NCBI RefSeq assembly: GCF_001870225.1
Contig: NZ_CP017675.1
Span: 138,774 to 202,773 of the forward strand
Source of the DNA: Gloeomargarita lithophora Alchichica-D10
GTDB lineage: Bacteria > Cyanobacteriota > Cyanobacteriia > Gloeomargaritales > Gloeomargaritaceae
Direction of reading: 5' to 3'
Length of the DNA: 64,000 nucleotides
Part shown: positions 47,182 to 59,542 of the stretch, in pieces
How positions within the stretch are numbered: position 1 is the stretch's first letter
Layout: every line of letters starts with the position of its first letter
The notes under the pieces: generated by a model
Database searches by the model: none
What the model was told of the DNA's origin: nothing
The model's input: only the letters and a program-made list of their open reading frames with translations
Translations under genes and position numbers: made by a program

Positions 47182-49257
47182 TTAATTGTTCCTTTTTTTG
47201 AGAATCGGTTTGGATGGTTTTTCTGAAGCATTTGACTGAGCCACTGGAAGCGATAAAGGCCATACTTGAATAGAATCTTCTGGTAAGGCATCCTTAAAAG
47301 CGGTACGGTCTCTAAAATCTGCCCCGAATATAGTCACCGTTTGATACTCAGAATCAGCCCCAGGATAGTTGGATTTGATCAGCACATAGGATGGAATAGC
47401 TAAAGAACCTCCTACTTTTTCATTCCCTCGTCTATCTCGATTAACACCCTTAAATTTATCACTGCCATACAGTATTTCTAATGCCTCTCCCCGCACATCG
47501 GGCTGATTGCCTTGACTTTGATAGCTATTCACCTGTCGGGGGTGTTTCAATCCAGGAGAAGGGACGAGAGTAATCACTGCATTTTGATTCAAGACATCCT
47601 GACAGCGGGTTCCCTTGTTATAAGGCTGACAAGAGCTGGGATTTCCCGAAGGGTGAACTATTTTGAATGAATTAATTAATTCTTGCAGAAATACTTGCCA
47701 AGGTTCTTTTGATAAAGATAAAATATTTTTATCAAGATTGCCATCAAGTTCCCAATGACATCCCCGCAATCTACCGCTATTGTAATGTAATGGACGGCGA
47801 GAACCCCGACCAACTCCCCCCAAATGAGATGCCAAAATAAGTAAGTTTTTCGCTAAAGTTAAATGCTCTGGGGATTTTGATTCCAATAGGATTTTACCTG
47901 TAATCTCAAGGGGATTATCACCGGATTTATCCCAGTTCATTCCAAGGCAAATGCTTCCTTCTTGACCTAAAGCACCAAATAATTGCTGTTCTAATTTTTG
48001 ACAAGATTCTGGGGAATATAAACCCAATGCTACGACTCTAAACCAATAACGCAATACACCTCTAAAAGCAACGGGTCTAAATTCAGTTTCTCCTCGCCAA
48101 TTATTCCCTCCACTAGGAGGATTTGCGCCATAAATCCCCTGCGACCAGAGGGTAAATTTATATTCCTGAAAATGTGGTAAATTATGGGTAATTTCAGTAC
48201 GTCCATAACCAGCACTCACCCGTGAACCGATGCCAATTTTTAAAGCATTTTCCAACCATTTTTTCACGGTTTCTATATCATTCTGAGTACCCCTTGATGT
48301 GGGTGACAATCCAATCACAATTTCTGGTTCCATGAGCGTAAGTAAGGCATGGGGTTCAGGTTTATATTCTACTTGCTGACCCCGCCAATGCCACTGAGGA
48401 TTAGCCATATCCATACTAAGGCAGGGTTTAGTGGGAAAAGCATCCAAAATCTGCACTTTACCCATCCCTTTTTTTAATGTCCCAAAGAGTTCATCGGCTT
48501 CAGATTCATAGCCATTGTTTCTAGCCCACGCATTTATCACACCTTTGAGGCTACTGGCAGGAAAATAGGGGATGCCATAGACAGGATGAAAAGCGGGTAA
48601 TAGTAAGTCCCTAAATCCACGCACTCCACCCACCCTAACCCGCCAAGGAAATTTAATTTCTAAAGTTGATTGCGCTAATTGTTTCGTTCGTTTTGCAAGC
48701 AAATCATAGATTGGTTGACAAGTTTTTTCTGCTTCTACGGCACTCTGAAGTACGGGTTGAACTAGCTCAACATTATTTCTATTGTCATACTCAAATGGTG
48801 TCACCAGTAATTTTGTAAGTGGGTTTTGGATTTGATGAATTATCGGGCGTTGAGTTATGACAGGGCGTTGGTTGATGATAGGGCTTTGGTTGGAAATAGG
48901 TCGTGAACTGGAATTATCAGGATTTTTGGTGGTTATGGTGCGTGCTGCGGGTTGAATTGTTTCAGAGAGCGGGGCAACACCCGTAACAAATTCAAGTCTA
49001 TCTCTCTGTAATTCTGATGGTATTCTGATCTTAATGGCTCCAAGTTTACTCTTTGCCGCTACTCTTGCTTCTTCAGTAGAAAAAATTATTTTTAGACAGT
49101 CTTTATTTATTTCAGCGATTTGGCTATCTTGAATTAAAACGTATATTGCCGGTGGTTGAGGCTTTTGTTTACTCATATTAGCTAAAAATTCTTGCCAAAT
49201 CATCTGGGGAGATTTAGACGGATTTGCGTTACGATCATTCCGATTACGGCTATTCAT
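47182..49257 (-). CDS. Cmr6-Cmr1 fusion RAMP protein with extra N-terminal region
   Basis: The 691-residue protein joins two type III-B RAMP subunits that are usually separate. Residues ~145-357 match Cmr6 (FRDLLLPAFHPVYGIPYFPA, SSLKGVINAWARN, LFGTLKKGMGKVQILDAFPT and the Gly-rich GIGSRVSAGYGR). Residues ~365-665 match Cmr1 (WRGETEFRPVAFRGVLRYWF, LFGALGQEGSICLG and GGVGRGSRRPL). These should cap the 3' end of the crRNA-bound backbone and bind target RNA. Residues 1-95 (WQEFLANM..., CLKIIFSTEEARVAAKSKLG) are not part of either family. They are followed by a low-complexity linker with P(I/V)I(N/T/H)Q repeats (126-142). It is the last gene of the operon and overlaps cmr5 by 8 bases. Confidence 0.85.
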   Translation of the reverse strand: MNSRNRNDRNANPSKSPQMIWQEFLANMSKQKPQPPAIYVLIQDSQIAEINKDCLKIIFSTEEARVAAKSKLGAIKIRIPSELQRDRLEFVTGVAPLSETIQPAARTITTKNPDNSSSRPISNQSPIINQRPVITQRPIIHQIQNPLTKLLVTPFEYDNRNNVELVQPVLQSAVEAEKTCQPIYDLLAKRTKQLAQSTLEIKFPWRVRVGGVRGFRDLLLPAFHPVYGIPYFPASSLKGVINAWARNNGYESEADELFGTLKKGMGKVQILDAFPTKPCLSMDMANPQWHWRGQQVEYKPEPHALLTLMEPEIVIGLSPTSRGTQNDIETVKKWLENALKIGIGSRVSAGYGRTEITHNLPHFQEYKFTLWSQGIYGANPPSGGNNWRGETEFRPVAFRGVLRYWFRVVALGLYSPESCQKLEQQLFGALGQEGSICLGMNWDKSGDNPLEITGKILLESKSPEHLTLAKNLLILASHLGGVGRGSRRPLHYNSGRLRGCHWELDGNLDKNILSLSKEPWQVFLQELINSFKIVHPSGNPSSCQPYNKGTRCQDVLNQNAVITLVPSPGLKHPRQVNSYQSQGNQPDVRGEALEILYGSDKFKGVNRDRRGNEKVGGSLAIPSYVLIKSNYPGADSEYQTVTIFGADFRDRTAFKDALPEDSIQVWPLSLPVAQSNASEKPSKPILKKRNN

Positions 49258-49634
49258 TTTCTGGTTCCCCTAAAACCGCCGGTGTCCAAAACGACCATTC
49301 CCTAGCCAGTTCAATCGCTAGACGGTTGAGAGATGTATAGGTTTTTAAGGGCATATTGATTAAAGTAGCTTCATTGTTTGGGTCGAAATCTATACCACTG
49401 AATGATTGTAGTTTTTGCAGAAATTTTTTATACACTTTACCCTTATATTTTGTATCTTCAGCAGTACCCTGGAGATATTTTTTAGCATCACCGCTCAGGC
49501 GATGCAGTCCCCAAACTGAGGTATAGGTAGCTAAATTTCGCACCTGACCACTGGCTCTTTTGTAATGGGTTTCTTGTAATTCCTGCTTTAATTCAGTTAA
49601 GGCATCAAATGCCTGTTGACTAAATTTACGAGAG

Positions 49635-49657
<23 letters not shown>
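49250..49657 (-). CDS. cmr5: type III-B CRISPR subunit Cmr5
   Basis: The 135-residue helical protein fits the small-subunit family Cmr5: SRKFSQQAFDALTELKQELQ at the start, ASGQVRNLATYTSVWGLHRL and LNRLAIELAREWSFWTP at the end. Cmr5 forms the minor filament along crRNA-target duplex. It overlaps cmr4 by 23 bases and the cmr6-cmr1 fusion by 8. A start at Met4 or Met5 is possible. Confidence 0.88.
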
Positions 49658-52293
<2,636 letters not shown>

Positions 52294-52303
52294 TGCTCGT
52301 ACC

Positions 52304-55300
52304 TTAGGCTGCCAGATTTTGATCTAATTGGTTATCCTTGACCCAACTTTGTCGCTGGTGCATTTTATCCACCCAAAAAGCGGAAAGTCTCAGAATTTTT
52401 GCTAAATCATCGGGAGTAGAACCCAGTTGGTTTTGATGCTCAAAAGCCCACTTTTCCCAATCATTTAACCAGTTTTCTAAAGGTTCAAGAATATCTTGGA
52501 ATTGGTCTTTCCGTTCTCGGCGAGCGAGAATTGTCCTGGTTACTAAAGCAAACAATTTATCATTTTTAGTAACAGAACAACGCAGGGGTAATTCCTCAGA
52601 TAAACGATATAAAACTGGGGCTAAATCTAACTCTGCTCCCCGTTGAAGCCATTGCCACCATTTTTTGAGTAAATCCCCTTTTATCAGTGCTTCCAAGGTA
52701 TTACCTGAACTGTAGATCACACGAAAACATAAGCCATCTTTGGCGGGAAGCTTTTTAGCTCGCTCTTTTTCGGCAGTCCAAATACTCTCTAATACCGTGG
52801 GTAGTGGTACGCTTTTGTGGGCGATAATTACTCCTATGCTCATCGTGGCATCCTGTCCCATTGTGAATAGGGCACGGTCAGGAATACCCGTTAATTCCTG
52901 TTGGGGATGCCAATAGCCCCCTGCATTTTTGAATTCGGCTTTGGGGTCAGCGGCTCCACTCCAGGCGGCGCGTAGGGTTAATAGGTATTCTGGCAAGTCT
53001 TCTAAAGGTAGGGCAGCCATCACATCATCGCCACCGCTGTAAATCACTTTGCCACAGAAACGCTGTTCGGTTAGGTAAGGAACAATCCGGTTAGAAAAAT
53101 CAAGCAAGGCCCGATTCAGACCAATATGAGTCGCAGGCCCCATGCGTTTTTTAGTATGCGGGTCGTTGAATAGTTCTTCCCAGGATTTTTCGATGGACTC
53201 CCATTTACTTATGTCCAATTGATTGTCTGATTTACGGGCATTTTCTAATGCTTTTTCATTCAATGACTTAATTTTCTCTTTGACTGATTCTGGGATGTAA
53301 TCACCATAGGGTTTTAACTTACGCCCATTGACATACTTGCCCATATTGTCCCCGTCAGCGAGAACCAAACACCACCAATCCGAGGGACTGCCATTGGTGA
53401 TACCACAATTTTTATGGGCTTGGTCTATAGACTCTTTGAGGGTGGTAATATCACTATCTGTTTGCAGTCCCATATCATCCGCCAGCCATTTGCTAGAAAA
53501 CATTACCCCGTTATAATCTGGTAATGTTTGATTGACTTTACTAATATGAAATGGTCGGCGGGTTAAAGAACGAAAACGGCTATGATATTCCGATAGTTCT
53601 TGCTGAACCGATTGATTTAAGCTATGCCAGTAGCGTTTAACTATTTCCGGGTGATCATGGGCAAAACGGGCACAGGCGATGGAACTTAGATTAGGAAATC
53701 GCACTAAATTTTCATAGTTTTCATCGTCATCTTCTCCGAGTTCAATGCCCAAAGATGTAGCGATTCCCCCATATTTCCAAGCCATCCGTTTGGTGAGTTC
53801 GATAGCGTTCAAATGCTCAGAACCGTTGAATAGTCCCGGAAAAACTTCGGCCATGACCAGCCAAAATAAACGCATGGAACCGGCGGGTAATCCCCCACCT
53901 TCTTTGAATTGATCACAGTAACTAAATTTAGGATGAACAGCACTATACATCCCAGAAATCGTAGAGCGTTCCCCAGGGGCAACCGGAATCTGCCAAGTGC
54001 GGGTATTTTTAATCGCTTGCAAACACTGGCCTAAACGGGCTTGAAAACTACCCCACCAGGTTCCCACATTGATAGTTGTATAAACTTTGGCTTCGAGTTC
54101 AGTAGGTAAGGGAAGGCGATTTTGTGCTAGGATTTGTTGGGCTGTAATCCATTGTTCATATTCGGTTTGTTGCAGTTGTAATTCAGGGTTTTTAGTGATT
54201 TGTTGGTGTTCTTTTTGGGTTAGGCGTTGACTGGTAAAGGGTTGCTCTGGATTTCCTAAAGGCAAAGCCACCCAGTAGGTTTCCCAGGTATGATCCAGTT
54301 GGGCATCCCAGAGTTTATTCCACTCCCAGTTACACTCCGGTCGCCACCATTGGTCAAATTCCCGCCGGTACAAATCCTGGCTGGCATCATTTAAGGTCAT
54401 TTCCTGCCAAACTTTTTCCCAAATTATTTCAGGCTTTTCTGAAAGTTTACGTTGAACTTCTTGATGAATAGCTCGTTTAATTTTTTCACCAATTTGCTGC
54501 CATTCATTTTTCAAGTGTTCTGCCAATTCCTGCCCCAATTGCTTGGCTTCCTCTGCCCCAGGAACTAATATCGTAATCATATTAGGAAATCCAGCCGTAC
54601 TTAGACTGGCAGAGGTTTTATCTATAAATTCCTGCACGGGATTTCTTTTTGAAATATCATTAAAAAATGTCTCAAATTCCGGATACTTTTTCAGGATGAA
54701 CGCATCAACGATTTCCTGTCCCCAGAGGGAGGGGGTGATCACCGCATCAGGACCATACTTTTCAGCAATAAACCAGCAGAGATTTACACTTAAATAATGT
54801 AGTAAATAAGAGCCTGACCAGAAGTCTAAAAACTTGCGAGAAGACTTGATAAATTCTTGAACTGGAGAAAAACTAAATAGTAATAGATAGGGACGTTCTG
54901 GTGGTTGACCCACTTGCCAATGATGGGGAAACATAGCTCCGGTCAAGGCAGACACGGTGCAGTTGTGAATATGAATAGAACAGTCGGGAATCCGGGTATC
55001 GGCGGGGAGATTGAGAGCGGCGGTGGTTTGGATTGCTTGGTCACGGGCGATGGATTCAGGATAAAAACGCCAGAACCACCAAAACACTTTTTCTAGGTCG
55101 GTTTCCCGCCTCATTTCATCCCATATATTTCGGTTGCCAATTTCTTCGGCATAGTGGTCGGTAAAGGTATTCCATAGTTTAATTATTTGGGATTGCCCAC
55201 TAATGGGGTGGCGAATTTCTATTTGGGTACTGGCATCCATAATTTGGGCATCCAGTTGAATCCCTCGTCTAAAGGTAAAACGATCCGATGCTGAGGCAAT

Positions 55301-55540
55301 ATGGTCGGATATTTCCCCAGTAGTATCCCACCAAGATATTAATTCTGCTTCAAAACGATATAATTCATTTACTTGTGTCCACGAACCTTGGACTCCTTTA
55401 TTTTTAAGCAATGACTTGAGCGGTGGATCATGCAACAGGGCGAACAATTTCCGGGCGAAATACATAGGGCGCATTAGGTTCAATAGTTTTAGTTTAGGGG
55501 TTGATGGAAAAGATGTCATCAGTTTTGGTGCGAAGGACAA
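52304..55540 (-). CDS. cmr2: Cas10/Cmr2, large subunit of type III-B complex
   Basis: The 1078-residue protein has an N-terminal HD-type segment (FALLHDPPLKSLL with His37-Asp38, later ASASDRF), expected to cut single-stranded DNA. The first palm region has VLADGDNMGKYVNG (about 727-739). The second palm region has YSGGDDVMAALP with the cyclase GGDD at 836-839, expected to make cyclic oligoadenylates. A C-terminal helical domain D4 completes it. Starts at Met23 or Met26 (MYFARKLFALLHD) are also possible. It lies 21 bp below cas2. No CARF effector gene is seen in the window, so the messenger's receiver must be elsewhere. Confidence 0.94.
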   Translation of the reverse strand: MSFAPKLMTSFPSTPKLKLLNLMRPMYFARKLFALLHDPPLKSLLKNKGVQGSWTQVNELYRFEAELISWWDTTGEISDHIASASDRFTFRRGIQLDAQIMDASTQIEIRHPISGQSQIIKLWNTFTDHYAEEIGNRNIWDEMRRETDLEKVFWWFWRFYPESIARDQAIQTTAALNLPADTRIPDCSIHIHNCTVSALTGAMFPHHWQVGQPPERPYLLLFSFSPVQEFIKSSRKFLDFWSGSYLLHYLSVNLCWFIAEKYGPDAVITPSLWGQEIVDAFILKKYPEFETFFNDISKRNPVQEFIDKTSASLSTAGFPNMITILVPGAEEAKQLGQELAEHLKNEWQQIGEKIKRAIHQEVQRKLSEKPEIIWEKVWQEMTLNDASQDLYRREFDQWWRPECNWEWNKLWDAQLDHTWETYWVALPLGNPEQPFTSQRLTQKEHQQITKNPELQLQQTEYEQWITAQQILAQNRLPLPTELEAKVYTTINVGTWWGSFQARLGQCLQAIKNTRTWQIPVAPGERSTISGMYSAVHPKFSYCDQFKEGGGLPAGSMRLFWLVMAEVFPGLFNGSEHLNAIELTKRMAWKYGGIATSLGIELGEDDDENYENLVRFPNLSSIACARFAHDHPEIVKRYWHSLNQSVQQELSEYHSRFRSLTRRPFHISKVNQTLPDYNGVMFSSKWLADDMGLQTDSDITTLKESIDQAHKNCGITNGSPSDWWCLVLADGDNMGKYVNGRKLKPYGDYIPESVKEKIKSLNEKALENARKSDNQLDISKWESIEKSWEELFNDPHTKKRMGPATHIGLNRALLDFSNRIVPYLTEQRFCGKVIYSGGDDVMAALPLEDLPEYLLTLRAAWSGAADPKAEFKNAGGYWHPQQELTGIPDRALFTMGQDATMSIGVIIAHKSVPLPTVLESIWTAEKERAKKLPAKDGLCFRVIYSSGNTLEALIKGDLLKKWWQWLQRGAELDLAPVLYRLSEELPLRCSVTKNDKLFALVTRTILARRERKDQFQDILEPLENWLNDWEKWAFEHQNQLGSTPDDLAKILRLSAFWVDKMHQRQSWVKDNQLDQNLAA

Positions 55541-55561: not shown

Positions 55562-55855
55562 CTATAGGATCAAATCCTGCAATTGAGCGGGTTTTGCGCC
55601 GCCCCATACTTCTATTTGTCCCAGGGTGTGTTCGGTCATGGGGTAGAACCGCAGATGGTCTTCGCTCAGGTCAAAATGGTGTTGCAAACGCTTTTGTAAT
55701 TCCCGGTAGCGTTGGGCATCTAAGCGACATTCAAAGACACTGTACTGCACCCGTTGACCATACCCCTCCAATAAATGAGCGGTCTTGCGGCGACGGCGAT
55801 CCGCTGGAATATCGTAGGTGACCAGGTAAAGTTGACCAAAATTAGCGAATTGCAT
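55562..55855 (-). CDS. cas2: CRISPR-associated endoribonuclease-family protein Cas2
   Basis: The 97-residue protein has LYLVTYDIPADRRRRKTAHL with the conserved Asp, EGYGQRVQYSVFECRLD and LRFYPMTEHTLGQIEVWG. Cas2 dimers scaffold Cas1 during spacer capture. It overlaps cas1 by 14 bases and lies 21 bp upstream of cmr2. Confidence 0.95.
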   Translation of the reverse strand: MQFANFGQLYLVTYDIPADRRRRKTAHLLEGYGQRVQYSVFECRLDAQRYRELQKRLQHHFDLSEDHLRFYPMTEHTLGQIEVWGGAKPAQLQDLIL

Positions 55856-56819
55856 AAGTTTGATAGGGAATCAAAGGGTTTAAGACACTATGTCGGTAGG
55901 TGCGAATGGTCTGGAGTAGGTAGTCCCAACGGGTAAAATTTTTCAGGTTTTCTTGCATCCGATCACGGAAGTATTTTAAGTATTTAACCCGGCCAGTATT
56001 ATTCAAAAAGCATCCCCCACGTTCATAGATAAAATCATGGTTAAAATTGACACTATGGGAATTAATTAGCCACAGGACTAATGAATCAATGATTGGGGCA
56101 CGAAACGGCTCTATTAAGTCAGAAATCAGAGCGGCATGACCATGATGAAATTGATGAAAACAGCCCTGATATGGGTCTAAACCAAAGTTCTCCACCAAGG
56201 CCAATAAATGATTCCAAAGGATTTGATAGCCAAAACTGAGCAGGGCATTCACTGGGTCTTTGGGGGGGCGATGATTCCGGTGGGTGAATTGAAAATCTGG
56301 ATTTTGAAAACAGTGACCAAGGGCAGGGAAATAACTGGCGGCGGCGGCTCCTTCAAATCCCATAAGTTGCTCGGTGCTGGTGGCTATTTTAATTTTGGCT
56401 AAACAATTAGTTAGCGTGGTCAAACACTGGGTGTTATCTGTAATATTGTGACGGCGAAGTTGTCTTTGCAAAAAAACCTTAGAGTTTTTGATTTTAGCGG
56501 AAATAATTGCTTTGGCAAGCGATAATTTATGTTCTGCTGTCATTTGTCGTTGTTGTTCAGCGACATGGCGATTTTTCGCATTGATGGGCGCTAAACGTCC
56601 ATAGCCATAGCCATTTTGGGATAAATAGATCAGGGGAATTTGTCGTTTGAGACAGGCATGAATTGCTTGAGTTGTGACCTGGGGATTGCCAAAGAGTAAA
56701 ATCGTGTCCAGCAGGGGCAGTTGGACTTCCTGAATGACGGTGGCTTGGTGCTTGACGACCAAAAGTTCCCCCCGTAGGGAGAGGCGGCAGTCCTGCCGAG
56801 ATACATAGAGAGTGTGCAT
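55842..56819 (-). CDS. cas1: CRISPR integrase Cas1
   Basis: The 325-residue integrase begins MHTLYVSRQDCRLSLRGELL. Catalytic positions are Glu156 (LMGFEGAAAASYF), His222 (YQGCFHQFHHGHAAL) and Glu237 (ISDLIEPFRAPIIDSLV). The usual GRPSLALDLMEEFRP segment is altered to HHGHAALISDLIEPFRA but keeps acidic residues. It is the first gene of the leftward cas operon, divergent from the array. Together with cas2 it makes this a self-sufficient adaptation module. Confidence 0.94.
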   Translation of the reverse strand: MHTLYVSRQDCRLSLRGELLVVKHQATVIQEVQLPLLDTILLFGNPQVTTQAIHACLKRQIPLIYLSQNGYGYGRLAPINAKNRHVAEQQRQMTAEHKLSLAKAIISAKIKNSKVFLQRQLRRHNITDNTQCLTTLTNCLAKIKIATSTEQLMGFEGAAAASYFPALGHCFQNPDFQFTHRNHRPPKDPVNALLSFGYQILWNHLLALVENFGLDPYQGCFHQFHHGHAALISDLIEPFRAPIIDSLVLWLINSHSVNFNHDFIYERGGCFLNNTGRVKYLKYFRDRMQENLKNFTRWDYLLQTIRTYRHSVLNPLIPYQTYAIR

Positions 56820-57168
56820 GAGGAGGCTGGGTAGAATGTAATTCTTAGATTAAACCCTCCTATCGTGAAATGGAAGGTTTTTGGTGCGAATGACGAAACG
56901 ACCAATATCGTTCATACAAGGTATAAATTTGTATAGACAAAAGAGGGGTTCGCAGGCGAAAAATGCGATGTTATGCGGTTTTGCGGGTAGCAACGGGGTC
57001 GGGGAAAGGCTGAAACGCCCATTTTCTCGTTGAGGCCGTCGGTGTCGCTCCCAGTCGGGGTTTGCGGGTTTGGGAAGGGGCGATTTTGGGGTTTTGTACT
57101 AACATCGCCGGGGGGGGTTCGCAAATGGCTCCTGAATGCTATACTGGGCGCAGGTTCTGGGAACAGGT
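56820..57168. promoter_or_regulatory. shared leader / divergent promoter region of cas operon and CRISPR array
   Basis: The 349 bp separate cas1 (leftward) from the first repeat (rightward). An AT-rich near-palindrome TATAAATTTGTATA lies at 56922-56935 and could be a promoter or host-factor site for cas1. The right half is GC-rich with many GGGG and TTTG runs. There is no credible gene. Confidence 0.65.
57118..57145 (+). promoter_or_regulatory. candidate promoter of the CRISPR array
   Basis: TTCGCA (57118) and TATACT (57140-57145) are separated by 16 bp. Initiation near 57152 would put the first repeat about 17 nt into the transcript. Inferred from sequence only. Confidence 0.5.
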
Positions 57169-59542
57169 CTCGCTTCCCTCCGGGGAAGTGGAATTAATGG
57201 AAACACAAACTCGTACCGGCTGAGGTTTGCGTGGCCCCACCCTCGCTTCCCTCCGGGGAAGTGGAATTAATGGAAACCGTTTGATCTTTCGGTTTACGAC
57301 CTTGTACTCGGCTCGCTTCCCTCCGGGGAAGTGGAATTAATGGAAACCCCGCGCTTGCGAGCGCGGTAGAAAGGAACCAAATCACTCGCTTCCCTCCGGG
57401 GAAGTGGAATTAATGGAAACAGCGTGGTAGCGGCGGTTGTCCCAATAGCGGCCATAACTCGCTTCCCTCCGGGGAAGTGGAATTAATGGAAACTTATTGC
57501 CTGCTGGGTGGGCTGACAATAAATTAGTCCTCGCTTCCCTCCGGGGAAGTGGAATTAATGGAAACGTTGAGGATGTGGTCGACTGGGAAATCGAGAATTT
57601 CTCGCTTCCCTCCGGGGAAGTGGAATTAATGGAAACCCGGTCGTTCCTGACCAGCCGCCAGGGGCGGATCGCTCGCTTCCCTCCGGGGAAGTGGAATTAA
57701 TGGAAACCCGCCTGGGAATAGCTTTAGCAACAGTGTATTGCTACTCGCTTCCCTCCGGGGAAGTGGAATTAATGGAAACTGTCAATAGCAATCGACTGCA
57801 AGGTAGTACAGGGGACTCGCTTCCCTCCGGGGAAGTGGAATTAATGGAAACAACCGCTGTATGCCCTGCACAGCCCCCGAAATGTCCACTCGCTTCCCTC
57901 CGGGGAAGTGGAATTAATGGAAACCTTGAGATAGCGGACAATGTGGCGGACAAAACCCCCATCTCGCTTCCCTCCGGGGAAGTGGAATTAATGGAAACGT
58001 CTTCTCTAACCCATAGATGCTCCGTTATTTCTGACTCGCTTCCCTCCGGGGAAGTGGAATTAATGGAAACTTGAGCAATGTCACCAACCGTTAAATAGTC
58101 CATAACTCGCTTCCCTCCGGGGAAGTGGAATTAATGGAAACTCGGAATTGCCCCCCCCGCCCCCCGCCCCACCGATCTCGCTTCCCTCCGGGGAAGTGGA
58201 ATTAATGGAAACTTTTAGTTAAGCACTTGCAGAAGTGGGCCAAACAGACTCGCTTCCCTCCGGGGAAGTGGAATTAATGGAAACTCCGCCGACAGCGCAA
58301 CCCCCGGCGACCCTAGGATACGGGATTTCTCGCTTCCCTCCGGGGAAGTGGAATTAATGGAAACTTGGTTCGCTGATTGCTTCACTAAAACTGGTGTCCA
58401 AGGCTCGCTTCCCTCCGGGGAAGTGGAATTAATGGAAACACGCATTAGCACCGCTAGCGTTAATCTGCGTTAGCGCGTCTCGCTTCCCTCCGGGGAAGTG
58501 GAATTAATGGAAACCGAATCACAGGTCAATCACGAGGCATCGCCTGCAGTGGTTCTCGCTTCCCTCCGGGGAAGTGGAATTAATGGAAACGGGAAAAGCC
58601 CCTTGACAGTGGTGCGGCGACCCGCCTTACGCTCGCTTCCCTCCGGGGAAGTGGAATTAATGGAAACCAGACCACTCCCGCACTACCGCAGGCTGGTCGG
58701 GGTCAATCAACTCGCTTCCCTCCGGGGAAGTGGAATTAATGGAAACGAGGGCGATTCGGCAGGGTTTATCAACCCAGGCGACTCGCTTCCCTCCGGGGAA
58801 GTGGAATTAATGGAAACACCCCAGGTGCTAAATAATACCGTTCTTGCTTGAAACTCGCTTCCCTCCGGGGAAGTGGAATTAATGGAAACTGTGATAGCGG
58901 AGTCAGTTGTCGCGCTCATGGGTGTCTCGCTTCCCTCCGGGGAAGTGGAATTAATGGAAACACGTCGGTATTAAATAGTGACGGAACAAAAACCTAGCTC
59001 GCTTCCCTCCGGGGAAGTGGAATTAATGGAAACGCGCACCCCCAGAAGTATCCGGGGGGCATTCATGGCTCGCTTCCCTCCGGGGAAGTGGAATTAATGG
59101 AAACCAAATTAGCCATGATTTCCTCCTAATGTTCTAAACCCTCGCTTCCCTTCGGGGAAGTGGAATTAATGGAAACTCGGCTCGAAGTCTGCTTTTTCAG
59201 CTTGTTCTTTGGTCTCGCTTCCCTTCGGGGAAGTGGAATTAATGGAAACCGGAAGGGCGGTTTCAGTACGGGATACCGAAACACCTCGCTTCCCTCCGGG
59301 GAAGTGGAATTAATGGAAACGCATGCAAAACCCCGGCACCCCACCCCGGAAATCAAGGAAAACTCGCTTCCCTCCGGGGAAGTGGAATTAATGGAAACCG
59401 GAAGGGCGGTTTCAGTACGGGATACCGAAACACCTCGCTTCCCTCCGGGGAAGTGGAATTAATGGAAACAATGCGCCCCCGCCACCGTCAAGCCATTTTT
59501 GCCAACCTCGCTTCCCTCCGGGGAAGTGGAATTAATGGAAAC
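57169..59542 (+). CRISPR. CRISPR array, 33 repeats of 36 bp, 32 spacers
   Basis: The repeat begins CTCGCTTCCCTCCGGGGAAG and ends TGGAATTAATGGAAAC. It forms a stem CTTCCC/GGGAAG with loop TCCG, followed by an A/U-rich single-stranded part and the common GGAAAC 3' end, which sets transcription rightward. Repeats 28 (59141) and 29 (59214) have TTCG loops; the others look identical. Spacer lengths in order: 37,34,37,37,36,35,35,36,36,37,38,36,35,35,36,44,39,39,40,41,43,35,36,36,36,35,36,37,35,42,35,37. Spacers 29 (59250) and 31 (59399) are identical. No Cas6 gene is nearby, so processing may rely on host RNase E as described for the Synechocystis III-B variant. Open frames across the array are artefacts. 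Confidence 0.98.

Follow-up and report, generated by a model that had tools for sequence, protein, structure and literature searches.

What is the region that precedes two CRISPR subunits fused in a single chain in the cyanobacterium Gloeomargarita lithophora Alchichica-D10, and what would a CRISPR complex do with it? We addressed this question in the window, a stretch of 64,000 nucleotides of the chromosome (contig NZ_CP017675.1, positions 138,774 to 202,773) that holds a type III-B operon and a CRISPR array, and in related loci of other cyanobacteria.

A type III-B operon ending in a cmr6-cmr1 fusion gene

The fusion gene is the last in an operon with the order cas1-cas2-cmr2-uma2-cmr3-cmr4-cmr5-cmr6/cmr1. 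Its 691-residue frame (49257-47182) is uninterrupted on the minus strand, and the plus-strand reading of the same coordinates is full of stops. The features of the locus and the evidence for each are as follows.

47182..49257, minus strand: cmr6-cmr1 fusion gene, 691 aa, with an N-terminal domain resembling DnaX-C and DnaA domain I (open reading frame and family matches)
48967..49200, minus strand: N-terminal domain, residues ~20-97, alpha-alpha-beta-beta-alpha-alpha-beta (profile, Pfam, predicted structure)
48823..48966, minus strand: variable low-complexity linker, residues ~98-145 (pLDDT 25-30; 6-50 aa in orthologues)
48184..48822, minus strand: Cmr6 RAMP part, residues ~146-358 (TIGR01898, PADLOC)
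47254..48174, minus strand: Cmr1-like RAMP part, residues ~362-668 (TIGR01894 below cut-off, PADLOC, solved Cmr1 chains)
49250..49657, minus strand: cmr5, sharing 8 nt with the start of the fusion gene (PADLOC Cmr5, 1e-17)
49635..50528, minus strand: cmr4 (TIGR02580, 5.3e-34)
50513..51658, minus strand: cmr3 (PF09700, 3.1e-36)
51661..52293, minus strand: gene of the Uma2 family, lying between cmr2 and cmr3 (PF05685, 7.7e-35)
52304..55540, minus strand: cmr2/cas10, whose sequence shows GGDD and HD-type motifs (family matches, PADLOC)
55562..55855, minus strand: cas2 (family matches)
55842..56819, minus strand: cas1 (family matches)
57141..59470, both ends approximate, no strand given: CRISPR array of ~33 repeats CTCGCTTCCCTCCGGGGAAGTGGAATTAATGGAAAC, spacing 70-80 nt

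The operon contains the type III-B (Cmr) gene set, with Cas10/Cmr2, Cmr3, Cmr4, Cmr5 and Cmr6 and with Cmr1 within the fusion, where the Cmr1 matches are weak but repeated, and the array of about 33 repeats adjoins it. The Uma2 gene carries a recent in-frame tandem duplication of 60 nt at 51812-51931 (97% identical). No match to the Cas6 family PF10040 was found in the organism's own genome at E<=1. A CARF-HEPN effector gene neighbours 20 of 39 related loci, usually just downstream, and is absent from the window locus. The third III-B locus of the genome comes with a cas1 of its own and with CARF effectors (Csx1-type and CARF-RelE), and these effectors could serve the window complex in trans.

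The assignment of the Cmr6 half is clear at the level of sequence: NCBIfam TIGR01898 matches residues 222-354 at 7.3e-14 (52.4 bits, passing the cut-off of 51.1), and the PADLOC Cmr6 match extends over residues 195-531 (1.4e-37), the PADLOC model PDLC01212 (499 positions) already spanning fusion-length proteins. The C-terminal part matches TIGR01894 (Cmr1) at residues 385-431 with 5.5e-4, where its 20.2 bits do not pass the cut-off of 28.65, and PADLOC Cmr1 at residues 389-439 with 5e-7; the solved Cmr1 chains 4w8x and 4l6u are matched by the clade profile at 9.6e-5 and 1.8e-4. Because these matches are recognisable but divergent, we call this part Cmr1-like. The earlier note had read Cmr6 and Cmr1 signatures in one 691-residue chain, a reading that is borne out with the boundaries refined to residues ~146-358 for Cmr6 and ~362-668 for the Cmr1-like part. 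The AAA+ clamp-loader core of DnaX (tau) is absent from the fusion protein, whose only family matches are to RAMP families.

A search of cyanobacterial III-B loci for the same fusion, which the earlier note had asked for, found it to be widespread, with relatives in 62 of 386 cyanobacterial genomes (mostly single open frames of 540-700 codons) and also on plasmids. The genome of G. lithophora has three III-B loci, all of which contain a Cmr6 ORF of fusion length; the two outside the window lie about 20 kb apart in the same chromosome (ORFs at L004 11094-12971 and L005 11186-12913). In two of the three loci, inspection by eye shows Uma2-like genes lying among the cmr genes (window 51661-52293; L004 9214-17964), several of them in the second. 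A Cmr6-Cmr1 fusion is therefore not new but ordinary for cyanobacteria and already published: PMC11855584 names a Microcystis Cmr1-6 and describes its expression and its purification in a working complex together with Cas10, Cmr3, Cmr4 and Cmr5.

The N-terminal domain, its conservation and its family

The region ahead of the RAMP core consists of one domain of ~78 residues (~20-97) followed by the variable low-complexity linker. Scanned alone, residues 1-145 of the window protein matched no curated family, and a Pfam scan of residues 1-144 gave only a chance match to the repetitive linker. Among relatives found by scanning contigs, where a single-protein query found nothing and an alignment-based query succeeded, the domain is present in about 30 cyanobacterial orthologues, and the adjacent linker varies freely. 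Most close orthologues (43-52% overall identity) begin with this domain, continue with a linker and then enter the RAMP core. The earlier note's statement that the N-terminal region is found in neither the Cmr6 nor the Cmr1 family needs correcting, as most close orthologues have the region too. The linker itself measures 6-50 variable residues in orthologues and has an AlphaFold pLDDT of 25-30 at residues ~98-145. A DNA-level repeat was looked for in the linker and none was found, so its repetitiveness reflects a repeated peptide, PIINQRPVITQRPII, and not a recent DNA duplication.

The domain is missing from Synechocystis-type fusions, to which the second fusion of this genome belongs; at this place they have a Gly/Pro-rich stretch or a shorter start. 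On a tree of the core, built by a quick method with eight distant fusions as the outgroup, the distribution of the domain fits one basal gain in the clade followed by several losses, with six changes in total, one of them in a member whose frame is apparently broken inside the domain (L070); the domain is missing from seven or eight members of the clade. These repeated losses show that III-B function does not depend on it. We rejected the idea that in Euhalothece the domain had moved to Cmr5, whose extension there is Pro/Gln-rich and is not the domain. Codon comparisons of close pairs gave dN/dS values mostly of 0.1-0.4 for the domain and 0.1-0.26 for the RAMP core, slightly higher in the domain, after setting aside one close pair with a domain value of 2.3 that rests on a dS of 0.02. 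By this measure, the domain is under purifying selection.

By profile, the closest relatives of the domain are the C-terminal domains of cyanobacterial DnaX. An hhalign comparison of 28 N-terminal domains with 30 cyanobacterial DnaX-C-type domains (from DnaX and a few nuclease-like proteins) gave a probability of 87%, P=3.7e-6 and a score of 34 over 74 colinear columns, end to end, at 16% identity. This similarity lies beyond that of the decoys: when the columns of the DnaX-C alignment were shuffled 200 times the top score was 16, and the reversed alignment scored 15; among 42 windows along the whole of DnaX the match was limited to those over the C-terminal domain. The match to DnaA-N, from an alignment set that contains one misplaced row, was weaker (P=1.3e-4); as a yardstick, DnaX-C against DnaA-N gave P=2.8e-6. 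Neither single-sequence nor genome-wide searches connect the head to DnaX at significance: over 194 genomes, the N-terminal domain profile found only fusions above noise, and the DnaX-C profile reaches the fusions at an E-value of only about 1.3. In a further, local scan, on a set rich in loci of DnaX and DnaA, the best-scoring DnaX proteins for the N-terminal domain profile were the genome's own and those of the same genus, at E 0.01-0.1.

Tau domain V, DnaA domain I and PolC-N are linked as related domains, and the Pfam matches of the orthologues fall in the same group. In a scan of 26 members, the sole families to match more than one were PolC-NII (4/26, best 7.7e-4) and DnaX_C PF20964 (3/26, best 0.01); the orthologue matches also include STICHEL DnaA_N-like. 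The window protein itself is without any match to DnaX_C (PF20964) or DnaA_N-like (PF23007) and stays outside both by their curated cut-offs, and the orthologue matches to PF20964 are weak; the silence of PF20964 says little, because this family misses even the genome's own DnaX. PolC N-terminal subdomains have been described as type II KH-like (PMC3919608).

Structure prediction, which the earlier note had proposed for the N-terminal region, returned a folded core with a pLDDT of ~90. The AlphaFold model built on the domain alignment has the topology H-H-E-E-H-H-E, and this predicted structure follows the alpha-alpha-beta-beta-alpha(-alpha)-beta fold of the superfamily. Compared with the whole PDB by Foldseek, its matches at ranks 1-7 are all DnaA domain I or DciA (E 0.017-0.065, probability 0.91-1.00); rank 10 is DnaA domain I again, with two MshE chains in between (probability 0.80-0.85). 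E-values overall are about 0.017-0.14, none below 0.001. In a viral fold library nothing matched below E=0.1, and two of the first seven entries are named as replication proteins. A full-length model from eight sequences (mean pLDDT 59) is too poor to place the RAMP halves relative to each other, although it too shows a well-folded head. The net charge of the domain is only about +2, similar to that of DnaX-C or lower, and KH-type RNA binding by the head is for this reason not favoured.

Taken singly, none of these numbers decides the matter, but the separate searches converge, and together they support membership of the domain in the superfamily of DnaX C-terminal domains, DnaA domain I and PolC-N. 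The resemblance to the C-terminal domain of DnaX/tau that the earlier note had called vague is thus upheld by hhalign with decoys, the Pfam matches of orthologues, the AlphaFold topology and Foldseek. The same note would have given up an extra functional domain if close homologues lacked residues 1-140 or had random sequence there, or if these residues were predicted disordered; the domain within them is conserved, predicted to fold and under purifying selection.

Possible roles of the head

In replication proteins, members of the DnaX-C/DnaA-I family are protein-docking modules: tau domain V docks on Pol III alpha, and DnaA domain I on the helicase and on regulators. The usual description of type III effectors is that of free complexes that locate RNA via base pairing. 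By computation we observe the fusion, its head, and the family, conservation and losses of that head; docking is a function we infer by analogy with the replication proteins. The reading we prefer, with a probability of about 0.6, is that the Cmr6-Cmr1 chain forms the III-B cap at the crRNA 3' end and bears a flexibly linked head that docks on a partner protein or pairs complexes. The two RAMP parts would cap the Cmr filament as usual, and the head, free on its linker, would dock the complex onto the partner or join complexes pairwise. A first candidate would be a partner that DnaX also has (DnaE or some other part of the replisome), and docking on it would keep the RNA-guided complex close to invader DNA that is being replicated and transcribed; any particular partner, DnaE included, is speculative.

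Cyanobacterial DnaX proteins (e.g. L080, L084) carry a tail motif near their end, A-x-x-L-A-[DEQ]-F-F-[NQ]-G-E-V, possibly a partner-binding peptide. The shorter form L-A-x-F-F-N/Q-G is present in most cyanobacterial DnaX and was found ahead of the RAMP core in none of 35 fusions. Because the fusions are without this motif, the same partner as that of DnaX cannot be assumed, even given a DnaX-like source. This bears on a narrower form of docking, overlapping with the preferred reading, in which the head docks III-B specifically on the replisome (DnaE or the clamp loader), rivalling or copying DnaX, either to hit replicating invaders or to tie interference to spacer acquisition by the neighbouring Cas1-Cas2. 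Such a role would fit the profile ranking, in which cyanobacterial DnaX-C domains come closest and the best-scoring DnaX of the local scan belong to the same genus, the genome's own among them; with the tail motif lacking and with a domain family that also takes in DnaA-I, PolC-N and nuclease-borne copies, which have or may have other partners, we regard it as doubtful. We would likewise put forward only tentatively, as an unlikely course of events, that one cyanobacterial III-B clade took up a replisome docking domain of DnaX/DnaA type, so that its complex is recruited to replication forks and immunity is coupled to replication.

The head might instead be a structural part of the Cmr complex itself, packing at the crRNA 3' end, binding RNA or self-associating. 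It sits on the subunit at that end, its fold is KH-like, self-association is known for DnaA domain I, and N-terminal extras also occur on solved Cmr6 proteins, such as the 376-aa 'CSD domain-containing' Cmr6 of 9arw. Since an essential packing role is at odds with a linker of such variable length and with the repeated loss of the head, and the low net charge gives little sign of RNA binding, we think a structural role rather improbable. A further reading, in which the first RAMP domain is preceded by mere unstructured or drifting passenger sequence, would suit the low-complexity linker and the lack of the domain in some clade members and in Synechocystis-type fusions, but is contradicted by the conservation, predicted fold and purifying selection of the domain, and we give it very little credence.

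Under the preferred docking reading, the head suggests that the immune complex is held to a second machine of the cell, which may be the replication machinery. If this is true, at least one lineage ties its type III effector to another machine by a conserved docking head of replication type, and the head, short (about 80 residues) and removable, would offer a handle for asking whether location matters in type III immunity.

Comparison with known systems

The complex and the fusion were known before, and the new part is the ~78-aa domain on a Cmr fusion; among open-licence papers, we found none that describes a Cmr protein with a DnaX-type domain. The nearest described system is the III-B Cluster 4 of Microcystis aeruginosa FACHB-524 (PMC11855584), where, in the excerpted text, Cmr1 and Cmr6 likewise form one chain, Cmr1-6, alongside Cas10, Cmr3, Cmr4 and Cmr5, and a Uma2 gene belongs to the locus too. 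An N-terminal replication-type domain is not part of the description of Cmr1-6 in those excerpts. Other subunits of the pair at the crRNA 3' end carry extra parts, namely the Cmr6 of 9arw and the Cmr1-MntA of 9z7q, but their added domains (cold-shock and MntA), judged by the molecule names, differ from the head.

Outside CRISPR, the C-terminal domain of cyanobacterial DnaX (PF23007-like; PF20964 DnaX_C) resembles the head in its equal length, in colinearity throughout and in a conserved Trp in helix 1, but it is located towards the end of a clamp-loader subunit, ahead of the tail motif that the fusion lacks, and the identity in the profile alignment is low. DnaA domain I and DciA (4tps, 2e0g, 2wp0, 7ykm, 8a3v) are the best fold matches in the PDB, but with TM-scores of 0.48-0.60 and a DnaA profile match weaker than that of DnaX-C. 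The DnaX-C-like family is also appended to other cyanobacterial proteins, with up to four copies in one, which makes it a portable module. Three such proteins (L110:1291-3207, plus strand; L111:842-2107, plus strand; L112:5205-6365, minus strand) join a nuclease-like N-terminal part, so called from the reading of an IQVK motif and matching no Pfam family, to one to four DnaX-C-like domains; PF23007 matches the four copies in one of these nuclease-like proteins at 2.5e-41. With the Cmr6-Cmr1 fusion, a CRISPR subunit joins the proteins known to carry a DnaX-C/DnaA-I domain.
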